Assembly: GCA_030055235.1 (NCBI GenBank)
Contig: JASGUW010000021.1
Span: forward strand, 1-40,665
Direction of reading: 5' to 3'
Origin: Bacillota bacterium
GTDB lineage: Bacteria > Bacillota > Clostridia > Saccharofermentanales > Fastidiosipilaceae
Length of the DNA: 40,665 bases
Shown here: positions 6,884 to 40,665 of the stretch, one piece after another
Layout: each line of letters begins with the position of its first letter
Position numbering within the stretch: the stretch's first letter is position 1
Translations under genes and position numbers: made by a program
The notes under the pieces: model-generated
The model's database searches: none
Told to the model about the DNA's origin: nothing
Seen by the model: the letters and a program-made list of their open reading frames with translations, nothing else

Positions 6884-7133
6884 TCTGGCCAATTTTTTCG
6901 TTCCTGCCCGGATTTCGGGGCACAAACGGCCTTTTTTGGCCAGCTGTGGCCAATTTTTTCGTTCCTGCCCGGATTTCGGGGCACCAGCGCAATTTTTGTC
7001 CATCCTTGGCCAGAAATCGGGGTTTGTGCCCCGGTTCAGGGCACAAACGGCCTTTTTTGGCCACCCGTGGTCAATTTTTTCGTTCCTGCCCCGGTTTTGG
7101 GGCACCAGCGCAATTTTTGTCCACCCCTGAGCA
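6884..7133 (+). repeat. 61-bp two-hairpin array, family A
   Basis: Four tandem units of 61 bp. Each has a main hairpin (TGCCC..GGGCA core with loops of about 6-8), a T5-T6 tract, then a spacer hairpin of TTGGCCA or TTGTCCA with TGGCCAA or TGGTCAA and a 4-base loop. Two different left arms (CGTTCCTGCCC, GTTTGTGCCC) and two right arms (GGGCACCAGCG, GGGCACAAACG) are combined along the array. The array sits between divergent genes, about 240 bases before the FAD oxidoreductase gene. Confidence 0.9.
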
Positions 7134-8984: not shown

Positions 8985-9105
8985 TCGAGTCGGTGCCCTG
9001 GCTGGAGCCAGTGCTCTGGTTCGAGTCGGTGTCCTGGCTGGAGTCGGTGCCCTGGCTGGAGCCGGTGTTCTGGCTGGAGTTGGTGCCCTGGCTGGAGCCG
9101 GTGAA
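8985..9105. repeat. 18-bp minisatellite downstream of FAD oxidoreductase
   Basis: About six to seven tandem copies of a GGTGCCCTGGCTGGAGCC-like unit with point changes. It lies just after the stop codon and can be read in several frames, but none has a start with a ribosome site. Probably slippage-prone non-coding DNA. Confidence 0.85.
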
Positions 9106-9117
9106 TGTCGGACCGCG

Positions 9118-9190
9118 GGTGAGCATGCCAGGAGGGTGGAGGGCGGTTGGCATGGGCCCTGCGCGCCGTTGCTGCAAGGCGCGCAGGGCC
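9118..9190 (+). repeat. Start module of 71-bp array B1, with strong hairpin
   Basis: 9118-9146 (GAGCATGCCAGGAGGGTGG core) resembles the reverse complement of 22071-22094 beside array B2. Then GGCCCTGCGCGCC and GGCGCGCAGGGCC (9155-9190) form a perfect 13-bp stem with a 10-base loop, leading into the first repeat unit. Confidence 0.65.
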
Positions 9191-9735
9191 AAAACAGCGC
9201 GAAATCCAAAAAACGATTTGGATTACAGGCTACTTTGGCCACAGAAGGCCTGATTCTGGTCAAAATAGCGTGTAATCCAAAAAATGATTTGGATACGAGG
9301 CTACTTTGACCACAAAGGGTCTGTTTCTGGTCAAAACAGCGTGTAATCCAAAAAACGATTTGGATAGCAGGCTACTTTGACCACAAAGGACCTGTTTCTG
9401 GTCAAAATAGCGTGTAATCCAAAAAACGATTTGGAAACGAGGCTACTTTGACCACGAAGGGCTTGATTCTGGTCAAAACAACGTGTAATGGCAAATTCGA
9501 TTGCCATTACAGCCTAAGTTGACCACAAAGGGCCTGTTTCTGGTCAAAACAGCGTGAAATGGCAAATTCAATTGCCATTACAGCCTAAGTTGACCACAGG
9601 AGGCCTGTTTCTGGTCAAAACAGCGTGAAATGGCAAATTCGATTGCCATTACAGCCTAAGCTGACCACGGAGGGCCTGTTTCTGGTCAAAACAGCGTGTA
9701 ATCCAAAAAACGATTTGGATATCAGGCTACTTTGA
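9191..9735 (-). repeat. 71-bp two-hairpin array, family B (B1)
   Basis: About eight tandem units with an exact 71-bp spacing (anchor GGCTAC or GCCTAA at 9299, 9370, 9441, 9512, 9583, 9654, 9725). Each unit holds hairpin 1 (TTGACCA..TGGTCAA, loop about 15) and hairpin 2. Hairpin 2 uses ATCCAAA / TTTGGAT in five units and ATGGCAA / TTGCCAT in three (9485-9652), so both arms change together. The array lies between the convergent FAD oxidoreductase and LysM genes. The minus call follows array B2, where the T6-containing form reads on plus. Confidence 0.93.
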
Positions 9736-9795
9736 CCACGGAGAGTCGCGCACGCCGCTATGCAGCGTGCAGGCCGCTGCACAGCGCGCAGGGGC
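9736..9795 (+). repeat. End module of array B1
   Basis: After the last hairpin-1 start, the sequence GACCACGGAGAGTCGCGCACGCCGCT leads into a GC-rich segment ending GCGCGCAGGG. Array B2 has the matching end (reverse complement of 21210-21250), so both arrays stop with the same module. Confidence 0.7.
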
Positions 9796-10196
9796 TTTCG
9801 GGATCGCCTTAATCATGCTGATTCAGTGCAACAGAATCTGGATTGCTTTGTTATCTCCTGGAAAATGCCTGGCAGTGCCAGTTATCTTCGTCGTTCACCA
9901 TCCTATCGCATACCATTCACATTCCGGCAGTTTGTGAGGACGATCGCTACGCAAGTAGCGGGAGATGAAATCTTCAAAACCCTCAAGAGCAAGCTGCCGC
10001 TGGAACAGCGGTATAACAGCGGTATATCAGTAATTTTCGAAAGACTCGGAAAAAGCTTTTACCAAGTCCCGACAGATATGACGTGCACCCAGGCAGCATA
10101 AAGCAACGGGCCGCGAGCACTGGCACCAATGTAGACCTTCGGTGTCGAATATTCGCTGTTAGGCAGAAGCGTACCAGCTCTTCTCAAGTGCCCAGC
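9796..10196. other. Intergenic stretch between array B1 and LysM gene
   Basis: Contains an open frame at 9760-10101 (113 codons) with no ribosome site and no recognisable domain; it starts inside the array end module, so I do not call it a gene. Nothing else was recognised. Confidence 0.4.
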
Positions 10197-15639: not shown

Positions 15640-15876
15640 AGATGACGATATTGCCCTGTAGATCGGGCAATATCGGACACTTTGGCCAAGGGGTGGACAA
15701 AAAACGCGCTGGTGCACCGGAATCGGGGCAGGAACGAAAAAATTGACCAGGGCTGGCCAAAAAAGGCCGTTTGTGCCCGCAAATCTGGGCACAAACCCCG
15801 ATTTCTGGCCAGGGGTGGACAAAAAATGCGCTGGTGCCCCAAAACCGGGGCAGGAACGAAAAACTTGTCCACATCT
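15640..15876 (-). repeat. 61-bp two-hairpin array, families A and C
   Basis: One family-C unit (ATTGCCC..GGGCAAT, 15651-15674) followed by three family-A units with spacer hairpins at 15682, 15743 and 15804 (61-62 bp apart). Read on minus, left and right arms alternate: CGTTCCTGCCC with GGGCACCAGCG, GTTTGTGCCC with GGGCACAAAC, then the first pair again. The array sits between the convergent AraC-type and MntP genes. Confidence 0.9.
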
Positions 15877-21156: not shown

Positions 21157-21250
21157 TGGTCAAAAGAGGTTGAAATGGTAATCGTATTTGTTATTACACG
21201 CTGTTTTGACCCTGCGCGCCGTGCAGCGGCGTGCGCGACCCTTCCGTGGT
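21157..21250 (+). repeat. End module of array B2
   Basis: Holds a variant unit with GTAAT..ATTAC arms (21178-21197) and a GC-rich insert inside hairpin 1 (CTGCGCGCCG..CGGCGTGCGCG), matching on the reverse strand the end module of array B1. Confidence 0.65.
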
Positions 21251-22012
21251 CAAAGTAGCCTGAAATCCAAATCGTTTTTTGGATTGGACGCTGTTTTGAC
21301 CAGAATCAAGGCTTCCGTAGTCAAAGTAGCCTGGTATCCAAATGCTTTTTTGGATTGGACGCTATTTTGACCAGAAACAGGCCTTCCGTGGTCAAAGTAG
21401 CCTGATATCCAAATGGTTTTTTGGATTGGACGCTGTTTTGACCAGAAACAGGCCCTCGGTGGTCAAAGTAGCCTGAAATCCAAATGGTTTTTTGGATTGG
21501 ACGCTATTTTGACCAGAAACAGGCCTTCTGTAGTCAAAGTAGCCTGGTATCCAAATGGTTTTTTGGATTGGACGCTATTTTGACCAGAAACAGGCCCTTT
21601 GTGGTCAAAGTAGCCTGCTATCCACATGGTTTTTTGGATTGGACTCTGTTTTGACCAGAATCAGGCCGTCTGTGGTCAAAGTAGCCTGATATCCAAATGG
21701 TTTTTTGGATTGGACGTTGTTTTGACCAGAATCAGGCCGTCTGTGGTCAAGATGAAGAGAAATACAAAATCCTTTTTGTAAAACTCCCGATCTTGACCAG
21801 GAACCGGTCCTTCGTGGTCAAAATGAGGAGAAATACAAAATCCTTTTTGTAAAACTCTCGATCTTGACCAGAAACAGGCCTTCCGTGGTCAAGATGAAGA
21901 GAAATACAAAATCTTTTTTGTAAAACTCTCGATCTTGACCAGAAACAGGCCGTCTGTGGTCAAGATGAAGAGAAATACAAAATCTTTTTTGTAAAACTCT
22001 CGATCTTGACCA
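21251..22012 (+). repeat. 71-bp two-hairpin array, family B (B2)
   Basis: About eleven units at an exact 71-bp step (GGATT anchors at 21281, 21352, 21423, 21494, 21565, 21636, 21707). The first eight use hairpin 2 ATCCAAA / TTTGGAT and hairpin 1 with a stem of up to 13 bp (GCTATTTTGACCA). The last units (from 21735) keep the 71-bp length but carry TACAAAA / TTTTGTA and an ATCTTGACCA / TGGTCAAGAT stem. It is in the opposite orientation to B1, between the divergent regulator and folT. Confidence 0.93.
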
Positions 22013-22202
22013 TCCGGAATCTATCTGCTGATTTCCTATCCTTCTATTCTTCCTTCCACCATCCTCCTGCCCGCCACTCTCATGGCTTGCTCGCCAGCAC
22101 TCCGCCATTCCCGTGCCCCGCCATTCCTGGCGCGCGCCCAAGCTTGGGGCCTGTTCCCCTCCTCTGGCAGAAACATGCTAAGATGGTGCGGAAATTCTAT
22201 TC
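22013..22202. other. Flank of array B2 before the THF riboswitch
   Basis: 22071-22094 read on minus (GAGCAAGCCATGAGAGTGG) resembles the start module of B1 at 9121. No clear promoter for the riboswitch was found, although transcription must start here or inside the array. Confidence 0.5.
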
Positions 22203-22303
22203 GACAGAGTAGACGAGTCGCGTCAAGTGCCGGGACATGGGAAGTCGGTCCCGGACGAAGGCCTGCATACACAAGGCCGCGGTGGCTCGTCGCGTCCGCT
22301 GTC
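22203..22303 (+). ncRNA. Tetrahydrofolate (THF) riboswitch
   Basis: Matches the class-I THF aptamer: a closing stem GACAG / CTGTC, the conserved AGAGTAGACGA..CGCGTCAAGTG strand, a GGGA-type hairpin arm, GGACGAAGGCC, and the late GGCCGCGGTGG..CGTCCGC strand that returns to the start. It binds reduced folates and lowers expression of folate transport or synthesis genes when folate is plentiful. It stands 87 bases before the ECF folate transporter gene, the typical target. Confidence 0.92.
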
Positions 22304-22389: not shown

Positions 22390-23001
22390 ATGTCAGTCGT
22401 ATCCACCAGGCCGCCGCGTCCGCGGCCCGTCTACCAGCTCGCCCTCGCCGCTCTCTTTGTGGCGCTCAGCGTCATTCTGACGCGCCTCCTGAGCGTGATC
22501 GTCATCGGCGGCGCCTTTCGCCCGGAACTCGGCCATGTGCCCATCCAGCTCGCCGGTCTGCTGCTCGGCCCCGGCTACGGCGCGCTGACAGGTCTGGCCG
22601 CAGATCTCATTGGCGTGATCCTAATGCCACAGGGTACCTTCCACCCAGGCTTTACCCTGTCCAGTGTGCTCGTCGGACTGCTGCCGGGCCTCGCCGTGAC
22701 AGCCCTCGGCGTCGTGTACACCCGATCGGGTGGGAAGAAAGAGCCGGAAGTCAGGCAGCGGATGCCTGTCCTGCTGGCCGCCACCGTGCTCAGTGACTGG
22801 GCCATCGCGCAGTTTCTCTCCACGTTCTGGCTCAGCGGTCTGCTCGGCTCTCCGTGGACGACGCTCTTTGCCCTGCGCCTCGTTCCGGTAGCCGTGCGCA
22901 GTCTGCTGAACGGCGCCGTACTGGCGCTGCTGTTGCGCATTTCTGTGCAGCTGTCACTGCCCGGCCTTCACCTTAACCACAAAAACCGAAAAATCAGCTG
23001 A
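22390..23001 (+). CDS. folT: Folate ECF transporter S component (FolT-like)
   Basis: A 203-residue membrane protein with about six hydrophobic segments, the substrate-binding S subunit of an energy-coupling factor transporter. The segments LALAALFVALSVILTRLLS, HVPIQLAGLLLGPGYGALTGLAADLIG and the FHPGFTLSSVLVGLLPGL loop fit the folate-type family. It needs shared EcfA/EcfT subunits, not encoded here. GGAAGGAGG lies 8 bases before the ATG and falls inside the riboswitch-controlled hairpin. The upstream THF aptamer supports folate as substrate. The longer frame from 22237 overlaps the aptamer and is rejected. Confidence 0.92.
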   Translation: MSVVSTRPPRPRPVYQLALAALFVALSVILTRLLSVIVIGGAFRPELGHVPIQLAGLLLGPGYGALTGLAADLIGVILMPQGTFHPGFTLSSVLVGLLPGLAVTALGVVYTRSGGKKEPEVRQRMPVLLAATVLSDWAIAQFLSTFWLSGLLGSPWTTLFALRLVPVAVRSLLNGAVLALLLRISVQLSLPGLHLNHKNRKIS

Positions 23002-34251: not shown

Positions 34252-35814
34252 ATGAATGATCTGCTCCAGGGCAAACGCCTCAATTATCTGCGCCGCCCGA
34301 ACGGCACGACCTATGTGTATGAAGTTCTGGATCGCTATTGGGACAAGGAAAAGAAACAGGCCCGAACCAGGCAGCGCTGTATAGGCAAACTCGATCCCCA
34401 AACCGGCGACTTCATCCCCTCAAAACGTTTCAGCCAGCAGCAGAAGGCGCCTCCGGACCCCAGCTGCAGAGCCAGGACCGTGATCGCCGGACCGGGTCTC
34501 CTCTTTCGCCATCTGGATCAGCAGATCGGCCTGTCGGACTGCCTTCAGGAGGCGGCTCCCCGGATCTGGGCAGAGATCCTTTCGCTTGCAGCCTGTCTGC
34601 TGGCTTCCGGCGGAGCGCTGTCGGATGCGGACATTTGGCTCAGTCAACACGAAAGCTGGTTGGATGGACCCCTGACGGGTGGAGAAATCAGCAATCTCTT
34701 GAAGGAGATCACAGCAGACGTGCGCCAGGCCTTCTTCAGGCAGTGGGGTACCTTGGACGGCGAGCGGCTCTGCTATCTCACCAGCTCAGTATCATCCTGG
34801 CAGGAACTAAAGGAATGTCTTCGATACGCATGTGATGAGTTCCCACAGATCTATCTGGCAACAATTTATGCGAAGGACAAGCTGCTTCCCGTCAGCTATC
34901 GTGAGCTTCCGGGACCGATCACGGATGTCACGGCGCTCCGGAATCTGCTTTCCACCTTTGACCTGCCTCGGACTTCAGGCGTCCATGTTGTCCTGGATCA
35001 GGCGTTTTACAGTCAGGAAAATATCGAGCAGCTATGCGAAAGTCGTCAGCCGTTTACACTGGCGCTTCCGGCAGATCTCGGCTGGGTAGAAGATCTCATC
35101 GATCAATACCGTGATCGTGTCGATGGCCCGGATGGCCTGAACTTCATCGACGGACAGCCGATCTATTGCCTGGCTGTTCCATACCCCTGGGGAGAGGCCG
35201 GGCGGAGCTGCTGGGCGCATATCTTTTATGACGCGGACCAGATGGTCCAGGATCGCCAGAATTACGATTGCTACATCCTCGATCTGGAAGAGGAGCTGCT
35301 GGGCGGGCAGCTGGTCAAAGAGCACCTGAAGGACTACGAGCGCTACTTCATTGTCAGGGAAACGCCGGTCAGGGGCCGCACGGTCAAACGCAATTCTGAG
35401 GCAATCACGGCTGGCCGCAGACAGTATGCGGGTTTTAGTGTCCTGTTATCCTCGGTTCTCAAGGATCCTTTGGAGGCGTTCAGGATCTATCGGGAGAAGG
35501 AGCTGGTGGAGAGCTGCTTCGACAACCTGAAGAACGAATCGGACATGAGCGTTCTTCGCATACATGGTTCTGTCGGCATGAGCAGCCGCAGCTTCATTCA
35601 GTTCATTGCCATGATTCTCCTGGCCCAGCTGCGTAAGCGCATGTTTGAGACAGGACTGTCGAAGTCATACACGGACCGGAGACTGATCCGGGAGCTGGAG
35701 TCGCTTATCCGGATTGAATATCCGGGCAGCGGGAAGGGCGAGCTGGGCAGGCTGTCCGAACAGCAAAGAGAAATCTTCGAAACGCTGGGGATCGCGGCTG
35801 ACGGGCAGCCCTAA
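34252..35814 (+). CDS. IS1634-like DDE transposase, altered catalytic motifs
   Basis: A 520-residue protein resembling IS4-superfamily (IS1634-type) transposases, with an N-terminal YVYEVLDRYWDKEKKQARTR block. The expected first acidic site (usually Y-D-x-T-S) reads YLTSSVSS, without an Asp at that place. The second block, normally D-R-G-F-Y, is D249-QAFYS. The third, RIYREKELVESCFDNLKN, keeps its Glu (420). So the protein is complete in length but may be inactive or domesticated. I start at ATG 34252; an in-frame ATG at 34243 is possible. No terminal repeats were found. Confidence 0.85.
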   Translation: MNDLLQGKRLNYLRRPNGTTYVYEVLDRYWDKEKKQARTRQRCIGKLDPQTGDFIPSKRFSQQQKAPPDPSCRARTVIAGPGLLFRHLDQQIGLSDCLQEAAPRIWAEILSLAACLLASGGALSDADIWLSQHESWLDGPLTGGEISNLLKEITADVRQAFFRQWGTLDGERLCYLTSSVSSWQELKECLRYACDEFPQIYLATIYAKDKLLPVSYRELPGPITDVTALRNLLSTFDLPRTSGVHVVLDQAFYSQENIEQLCESRQPFTLALPADLGWVEDLIDQYRDRVDGPDGLNFIDGQPIYCLAVPYPWGEAGRSCWAHIFYDADQMVQDRQNYDCYILDLEEELLGGQLVKEHLKDYERYFIVRETPVRGRTVKRNSEAITAGRRQYAGFSVLLSSVLKDPLEAFRIYREKELVESCFDNLKNESDMSVLRIHGSVGMSSRSFIQFIAMILLAQLRKRMFETGLSKSYTDRRLIRELESLIRIEYPGSGKGELGRLSEQQREIFETLGIAADGQP

Positions 35815-40191: not shown

Positions 40192-40346
40192 GGAGTTGTG
40201 TAAGAGGAAAGATCGACACAACTCCAAAAGTTGGCAAATCCGCCCTCAGTTTTGACAAAAAATCGAGTTGTGTCAGGAAAAGGTGACACAACTCGAAAAG
40301 TTGGCAAATCCGTCCTCGGTTTTGACAAAAGGTCGAGTTGTGTCAG
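40192..40346 (-). repeat. 70-bp hairpin array, family D
   Basis: Two hairpins GAGTTGTGTCA..TGACACAACTC style (one perfect pair at 40265-40294) and an orphan arm (40335-40346), at 70-bp steps (GACACA at 40215 and 40285; GAGTTG at 40265 and 40335). Spacer pairs are TTGGCAAA with TTTTGACAA. Read on minus it matches 28557-28650, again next to an F block. Confidence 0.9.
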
Positions 40347-40396
40347 CGAAAGAAACTGAATCAAAAACGGGTTGCAAATAGATTAGACGTCGCTAA

Positions 40397-40450: not shown

Positions 40451-40464
40451 GGGCTATAAAAGTC

Positions 40465-40665
40465 GGTATTGCCCCTGGAATCGGGCAATATCGAAGTTTT
40501 TGACCAGGGAGTGGACAAAAATCACGGTATTGCCCCTGGAATTGGGCAATATCGAAGTTTTTGACCAGAGAGTGGACAAAAATCACGGTATTGCCCCTGG
40601 AATCGGGCAATATCGAAGTTTTTGACCAGGGAGTGGACAAAAATCACGGTATTGCCCCTGGAATC
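40465..40665 (-). repeat. 61-bp hairpin array, family C, running off the window
   Basis: At least three identical-length units (ATTGCCC..GGGCAAT, spacing 61) with spacer TTGACCA-gggag-TGGACAA, whose stem holds a conserved A-A mismatch. Units are almost identical, suggesting recent expansion. The array continues past the window end. Confidence 0.93.

Follow-up and report, generated by a model that had tools for sequence, protein, structure and literature searches.

The hairpin array B2 most probably forms the internal part, variable in its number of units, of a non-autonomous DNA transposon of modular build (a MITE) of this genus, in a copy whose ends have decayed. The array lies in a 40,665-bp stretch of DNA, here called the window, which is one contig of a draft genome of 3.42 Mb in 242 contigs (G000); a single sister genome of another species of the same genus, also a draft (G001), was available for comparison. 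In the mechanism that we propose, a transposase supplied in trans would act on the ends of the element and so spread it, while slippage or unequal recombination between identical repeats would make the number of units grow and shrink. These same processes would keep the unit length at 71 bp and shift a small set of old unit types (A, G, T and S) in blocks, and selection or palindrome-correcting repair would hold the fold over the long term.

Hairpin units of arrays B2 and B1

B2 consists of 11 tandem units, each comprising a 56-bp hairpin and a 15-bp spacer, at positions 21247-22012 of the window as determined by TRF and direct reading. The first seven units, of type A, begin at 21247, 21318, 21389, 21460, 21531, 21602 and 21673 and carry the inner arm ATCCAAA or one-base variants of it; the last four begin at 21744, 21815, 21886 and 21957, every step is 71 bp, and the final hairpin ends at 22012. 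The exact unit length given in the preliminary description is thus borne out, as is the swap of the inner arms to TACAAAA/TTTTGTA in the last four units with a matching change of the outer stem, although one of these four has TGGTCAAAAT. Every unit of 56 nt forms a single long hairpin (z of -5.6 to -7.0 against dinucleotide shuffles), and the spacers of 71-bp units are related copies of AGAAACAGGCCnTTCnG. The features of B2 and its surroundings are:

21157-21212, + strand: decayed type-G hairpin unit (TGGTAAT/GTTATTA), a twelfth unit upstream of B2
21212-21238, + strand: GC-rich hairpin CTGCGCGCCGTGCAGCGGCGTGCGCG, between the decayed G unit and B2
21247-21728, + strand: B2 block of seven type-A hairpin units, outer arms TGGTCAA/TTGACCA, inner arms ATCCAAA/TTTGGAT
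21744-22012, + strand: B2 block of four type-T hairpin units, inner arms TACAAAA/TTTTGTA, outer arms TGGTCAAGAT/ATCTTGACCA
22066-22143, + strand: weak match to the right module (RE-like), read as the decayed right end of B2 (13.7 bits and E 0.003 when 2.7 kb was searched)

GC-rich hairpins like CTGCGCGCCGTGCAGCGGCGTGCGCG recur at the edges of many 71-bp arrays. Because the right-module match is weak and the module profile search recognised no left module at B2, its membership in the element rests on its units; read in this way, B2 is a copy of the element with decayed ends. Just downstream lies a THF riboswitch aptamer (window 22203-22303, 79.8 bits); the gene that follows it (22390-23001) encodes a membrane protein resembling a folate transporter subunit.

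Array B1 was correctly described earlier as the counterpart of B2 in opposite orientation: it belongs to the same 71-bp family, is composed of type A and type G units, and lies on the other strand. Its flanks are far better preserved:

9103-9155, - strand: partial right module (RE) of B1 (18 bits)
9187-9738, - strand: B1 hairpin array, with the units in the order A, three G, four A in unit orientation
9786-10090, - strand: left module (LE) of B1 (186 bits)
10067-10090, - strand: left terminal inverted repeat of B1, GGGTGCACGTCATATCTGTCGGGA, without mismatch

By these matches, B1 is a nearly intact copy of the element.

The enclosing element

The boundaries of the element emerged from G001, in which the flanks of S-type arrays are homologous to one another over about 300 bp upstream and about 90 bp downstream, with a sharp stop in most copies. 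The resulting order is a left module of about 300 bp, n tandem 71-bp hairpin units, and a right module of about 87 bp. In the module profile search, 17 of the 23 arrays of G001 have both modules and 20 have at least one; of the 34 arrays of G000, 10 have both, 26 have at least one and eight have neither. No module lies in the wrong orientation. The ends are terminal inverted repeats (TIRs) of about 24 bp that face each other, GGGTGCACGTCA-N4-TGTCGGGA. With up to three mismatches allowed, this pattern has 132 matches in the two genomes versus none for a reversed-pattern control. Paired ends, representing complete copies, are mostly 420-1000 bp apart, and none of these pairs encloses a transposase. 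Viral contigs contained no exact TIR.

Target duplications of 8-9 bp flank single copies (GTGCGCGT, TTCTGGATG and TGACGCTG). Matching flanks at the best register (no more than one mismatch in 7 bp) were present in nine of 34 complete elements against 0.85 expected with swapped flanks, though several of the nine share one host site and are not all independent; in most copies the duplication is no longer present. Arrays thus lie between modules that end in TIRs, some with target duplications, which makes the array the variable-number core of what appears to be a MITE: an element with TIRs and, in a minority of copies, a target duplication, that is short, non-coding and dispersed in many copies. 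Several S elements of G001 appear to share one insertion site, with the duplication CCATTTTG, in transposase DNA similar to window 34252-35814. The DDE transposase gene at that position in the window has a weak match to DDE_Tnp_1 and is, judged by eye, presumably IS1634-like.

A search for the mobilising enzyme found no intact transposase with the ends of the 71-bp element in G000 or G001. Genes for IS256- and IS1595-type transposases are absent from both genomes, and ISL3 transposases are represented by two short fragments in G000 and nothing more in either. Candidates that were considered and rejected are the DDE_Tnp_1 elements, whose loci lack the ends of the element, the tyrosine recombinases, none of whose seven matches has element ends nearby, and a RAYT/REP system, for which there is no more than a fragmentary REP-type (Y1) transposase interrupted by four stops. 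Three tyrosine recombinase genes stand in a row at G000:C198:1288-3740 (L150, L151 and L153), in an arrangement like that of a RIT (recombinase in trio).

Other hairpin arrays and their abundance

The window carries further arrays of related design:

116-358, + strand: single 60-type unit and right end of the second element, with the TIR GTAAGCGGTTCATAGTCGGACGGG reading inward from 358
6886-7126, + strand: 60/61-bp hairpin array (TGCCCC/GGGGCA) of the second element family
15682-15871, - strand: 60/61-bp array of the same second family; nine other copies match its left module of about 190 bp
40193-40367, + strand: 70-bp hairpin array (GAGTTGTGTC/GACACAACTC)
40464-40665, + strand: 61-bp hairpin array (TTGCCC/GGGCAA)

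The 60/61-bp arrays have modules of their own, about 190 bp on the left and about 170 bp on the right. The ends of this second element, GTAAGCGGTTCATAATCGGACGGG, resemble the ends that flank IS66-type transposase genes in this genome (GTAAGCGCTCAAAAATCGG, L210), and so are like those of its IS66 transposons (GTAAGCG...AATCGG). The left module is also found in opposite orientation at 61-bp 'P' arrays. A common hairpin style, marked by the outer boxes TGG-CAA/TTG-CCA, is therefore present in unrelated elements; no ends are defined for the 70- and 92-bp arrays. Relatives of the 92-bp family in G001 have 71/72-bp units with changed arms (TGTGCAAAATTTCGAGG...; L033 16450-16651 and L122 17978-18318).

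A DNA search with B2 as query detected about 45 arrays in G000; of 58 relatives searched, only the sister genome G001 has any. Likewise, of 188 genomes of the order, only the two of this genus have the full element, the one other match being weak and 40 bp long. In 0.81 Mb of G000 we counted 115 arrays with 464 hairpin units in all. An unbiased sample of 462 kb from the same genome held 63 arrays of all families, comprising 199 units; at this density of one array every 7.3 kb, the whole genome would have, by extrapolation, about 470 arrays and 1,470 units. The density in G001 is about threefold lower. As several contigs of the draft genomes start or end in arrays, the arrays probably explain part of the fragmentation of the assembly. 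A Treponema MAG contig (L094 1816-2008) has a 21-bp tandem array, TTCTTGACCAGAAACAGGCCG, that exactly matches the spacer motif of the 71-bp units; we rejected it as a relative, since its array differs, with a period of 21 bp, and the spacer match is probably coincidence.

Unit length, unit types and the hairpin fold

The constant unit length had suggested a length-sensitive reader. Such a reader is not needed, since the length is constant within each family but differs from one to the next (71, 70, 60/61 or 92 bp), as would be expected of tandem copies of one ancestor. Within the 71-bp family the step is 71 bp for 208 of 222 neighbouring pairs of the same type and for 14 of 24 pairs of different types, and the remaining steps are mostly 70/72 or 88-90 bp. 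In the sampled genome the 88-90-bp steps among 71-type neighbours reflect an inserted GC hairpin; at L013 10027-10216 and in other arrays of G000, this is a GC-rich hairpin of 18-19 bp placed in the spacer. The unit lengths of 60/61, 70/71 and 92 bp fall near 10.5k - 2.5 (k = 6, 7, 9), which could mean helical phasing, though the data points are few.

Arm sets do switch in blocks, as anticipated, with 17 boundaries in 15 mixed arrays, and the arms match in 316 of 324 units. What the preliminary description took for a rewriting of both hairpins is, in place of a unit-by-unit rewriting of arms, the shuffling of a few old unit types in blocks. Its alternative suggestion, a copying mechanism, is supported, for units are more alike within arrays, and it is a transposon-like element that carries the arrays as a whole. 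At lag 1 in an array, two units differ at 3.5-5.4 of their 56 bases, compared with 4.5-9.8 for units from different arrays; the nearest neighbour of a unit lies in the same array at about 7-10 times the chance rate for types A, G and S and about twice for T. One clear A/G hybrid unit sits exactly at an A-G boundary, and where a homologous flank marks one orthologous locus, the array has A units in G000 and T-like units in G001. From sequence comparison, the similarity of units, the hybrid and the type switch all fit local duplication, loss and recombination of few unit types. The 71-bp length would be kept because the copies descend from one unit; relative to substitutions, a rough measure because the aligner adds some false gaps, indels are rarer in the units (1:17 and 1:36) than in the left module (1:6) and about as frequent as in the right module (1:15).

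Pairing is retained as types diverge. In the comparison of types A, G, T and S, both sides of a pair have changed in 75 cells versus 34 in shuffles (none of 500 as high), a count inflated by the relatedness of the units; the covariation score is 0.284 versus 0.150 in shuffles, with slid structures far lower, and the number of covarying pairs (9) is not above shuffles. This retention of pairing by compensatory change suggests that the hairpin itself matters and that there is likely some constraint on its fold. Within types, new mismatches arise at approximately the proportions of neutral mutation and without strand preference (recent G.T versus A.C mismatches of 9:8, 11:10, 11:11 and 16:17). 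Taken with the compensation between types, this indicates that the fold is kept over long rather than short times, for which either selection or palindrome-correcting template switching could be responsible.

Alternative explanations

The arrays might instead be functional sites of the host at fixed places, such as nucleoid or replication sites or the arrays of a length-counting protein. Fixed unit lengths, outer TGG-CAA boxes common to several families and compensatory changes between unit types would all suit such a role, but it is made quite improbable by the disagreement of the genomes over where arrays lie: of seven orthologous intergenic slots with an array, five are filled in G000 alone and one in G001 alone, and in the seventh the two genomes have unrelated families. 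Transposon-like ends that bound the arrays also speak against it, as does their mixed setting, with 26 arrays between convergent, 25 between divergent and 36 between codirectional genes (as called by a simple hexamer-based script) and an orientation unrelated to these neighbours. Alignment of filled and empty orthologous sites gave no clean boundaries because the intergenic DNA is too diverged. In one orthologous intergenic region the two genomes have arrays of different unit length, 70 bp in G000 and 71 bp in G001 (L071 8591-8717 and L035 10651-10989). That the hairpins act as RNA, as regulatory or decoy RNAs or tandem terminators, and are retained for this reason is very unlikely. The folds are strong, and G.U pairs make one strand fold better than the other in types A, G and S; yet neither strand is favoured by the near-equal G.T and A.C mismatches among recent changes, the strand of neighbouring genes is unrelated, and the sampled arrays overlap no called genes. 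The units match no Rfam family, gathering and permissive thresholds returning only the THF riboswitch and chance matches. A terminator or promoter role inferred from context was similarly rejected, as there is no bias relative to neighbouring genes.

Two conserved boxes per arm around a variable mid-stem and loop, and an outer TGG-CAA box conserved in unrelated elements, recall single-strand recombination sites of the attC kind or REP/BIME-like substrates, from which a hairpin enzyme would build arrays unit by unit. The R boxes of attC sites have the consensus RYYYAAC/GTTRRRY. The outer boxes TGGTCAA/TTGACCA lack the AAC/GTT core of this consensus and the 15-bp spacers contain no cassette genes, so an integron attC array was rejected; a CRISPR array was likewise dismissed, the spacers being related copies and not unique. 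With no genes between units, the only REP-type transposase a fragment, and the terminal repeats of the enclosing element already explaining spread, we regard recombination sites of this kind as highly improbable. A further idea, unlikely in our estimation, is that an enzyme recognising the hairpin ends (TGG-CAA/TTG-CCA) builds or exchanges arrays in several unrelated transposons; if true, the hairpin unit and not the enclosing element would be the primary mobile entity. The internal module of a MITE remains our preferred explanation of B2.

Comparison with known systems

One genome seems to carry several hundred transposon-borne hairpin arrays from at least two unrelated TIR families, with unit types that turn over genome-wide between sister species. 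This would constitute a bacterial parallel to transposon-riding satellite DNA and offer a system in which to study the growth of such arrays, their homogenisation and the preservation of the fold.

Hairpins scattered between genes, in some cases as regular arrays, are familiar from REP/BIME and REPIN sequences, whereas the units described here are not tied to an intact RAYT and lie inside a TIR-bounded element (PMC2817692, PMC3116915). MITEPgRS/MITE464 of Porphyromonas gingivalis is likewise a MITE with internal tandem repeats, of 41 bp, but with other ends and repeats and with repeat flanks that are themselves repetitive (PMC4596501). A closer parallel is the BOX element of Streptococcus pneumoniae, boxA-boxB(n)-boxC, whose ends have been likened to ISSpn2 (PMC3049150). 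Left module, hairpin units and right module follow one another in fixed order and strand here too, a likeness of plan for which we claim no homology; boxA and boxC are about 50 nt and belong to another host group (PMC3049150), and our end modules are longer. In S. suis, different end modules share one boxB and the number of middle modules varies, much as a hairpin style is common here to elements with different ends (PMC3049150). The BrickBuilt MITE of P. gingivalis comprises a leader, tandem 23-bp repeats and a tail with short inverted-repeat ends; its approximately 20 copies are intergenic, are predicted to form long stem loops and are restricted to few species (PMC4596501). End modules around a variable-number tandem repeat, inverted-repeat ends, intergenic location, stem loops and narrow distribution are thus shared, while BrickBuilt has 23-bp repeats without spacers and IS5-type ends (PMC4596501). 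The element described here differs in its self-contained 71-bp hairpins with spacer, its 8-9-bp duplications, its several families and block-switching unit types, and its abundance of a few hundred arrays per genome by extrapolation. By analogy, then, the element is built on the same plan as BrickBuilt and BOX, with a different host, module size and ends, a higher density, and several families that share a hairpin style; modular elements are already known in other bacteria, but by this comparison are rarely so dense or marked by whole hairpins that switch in blocks.
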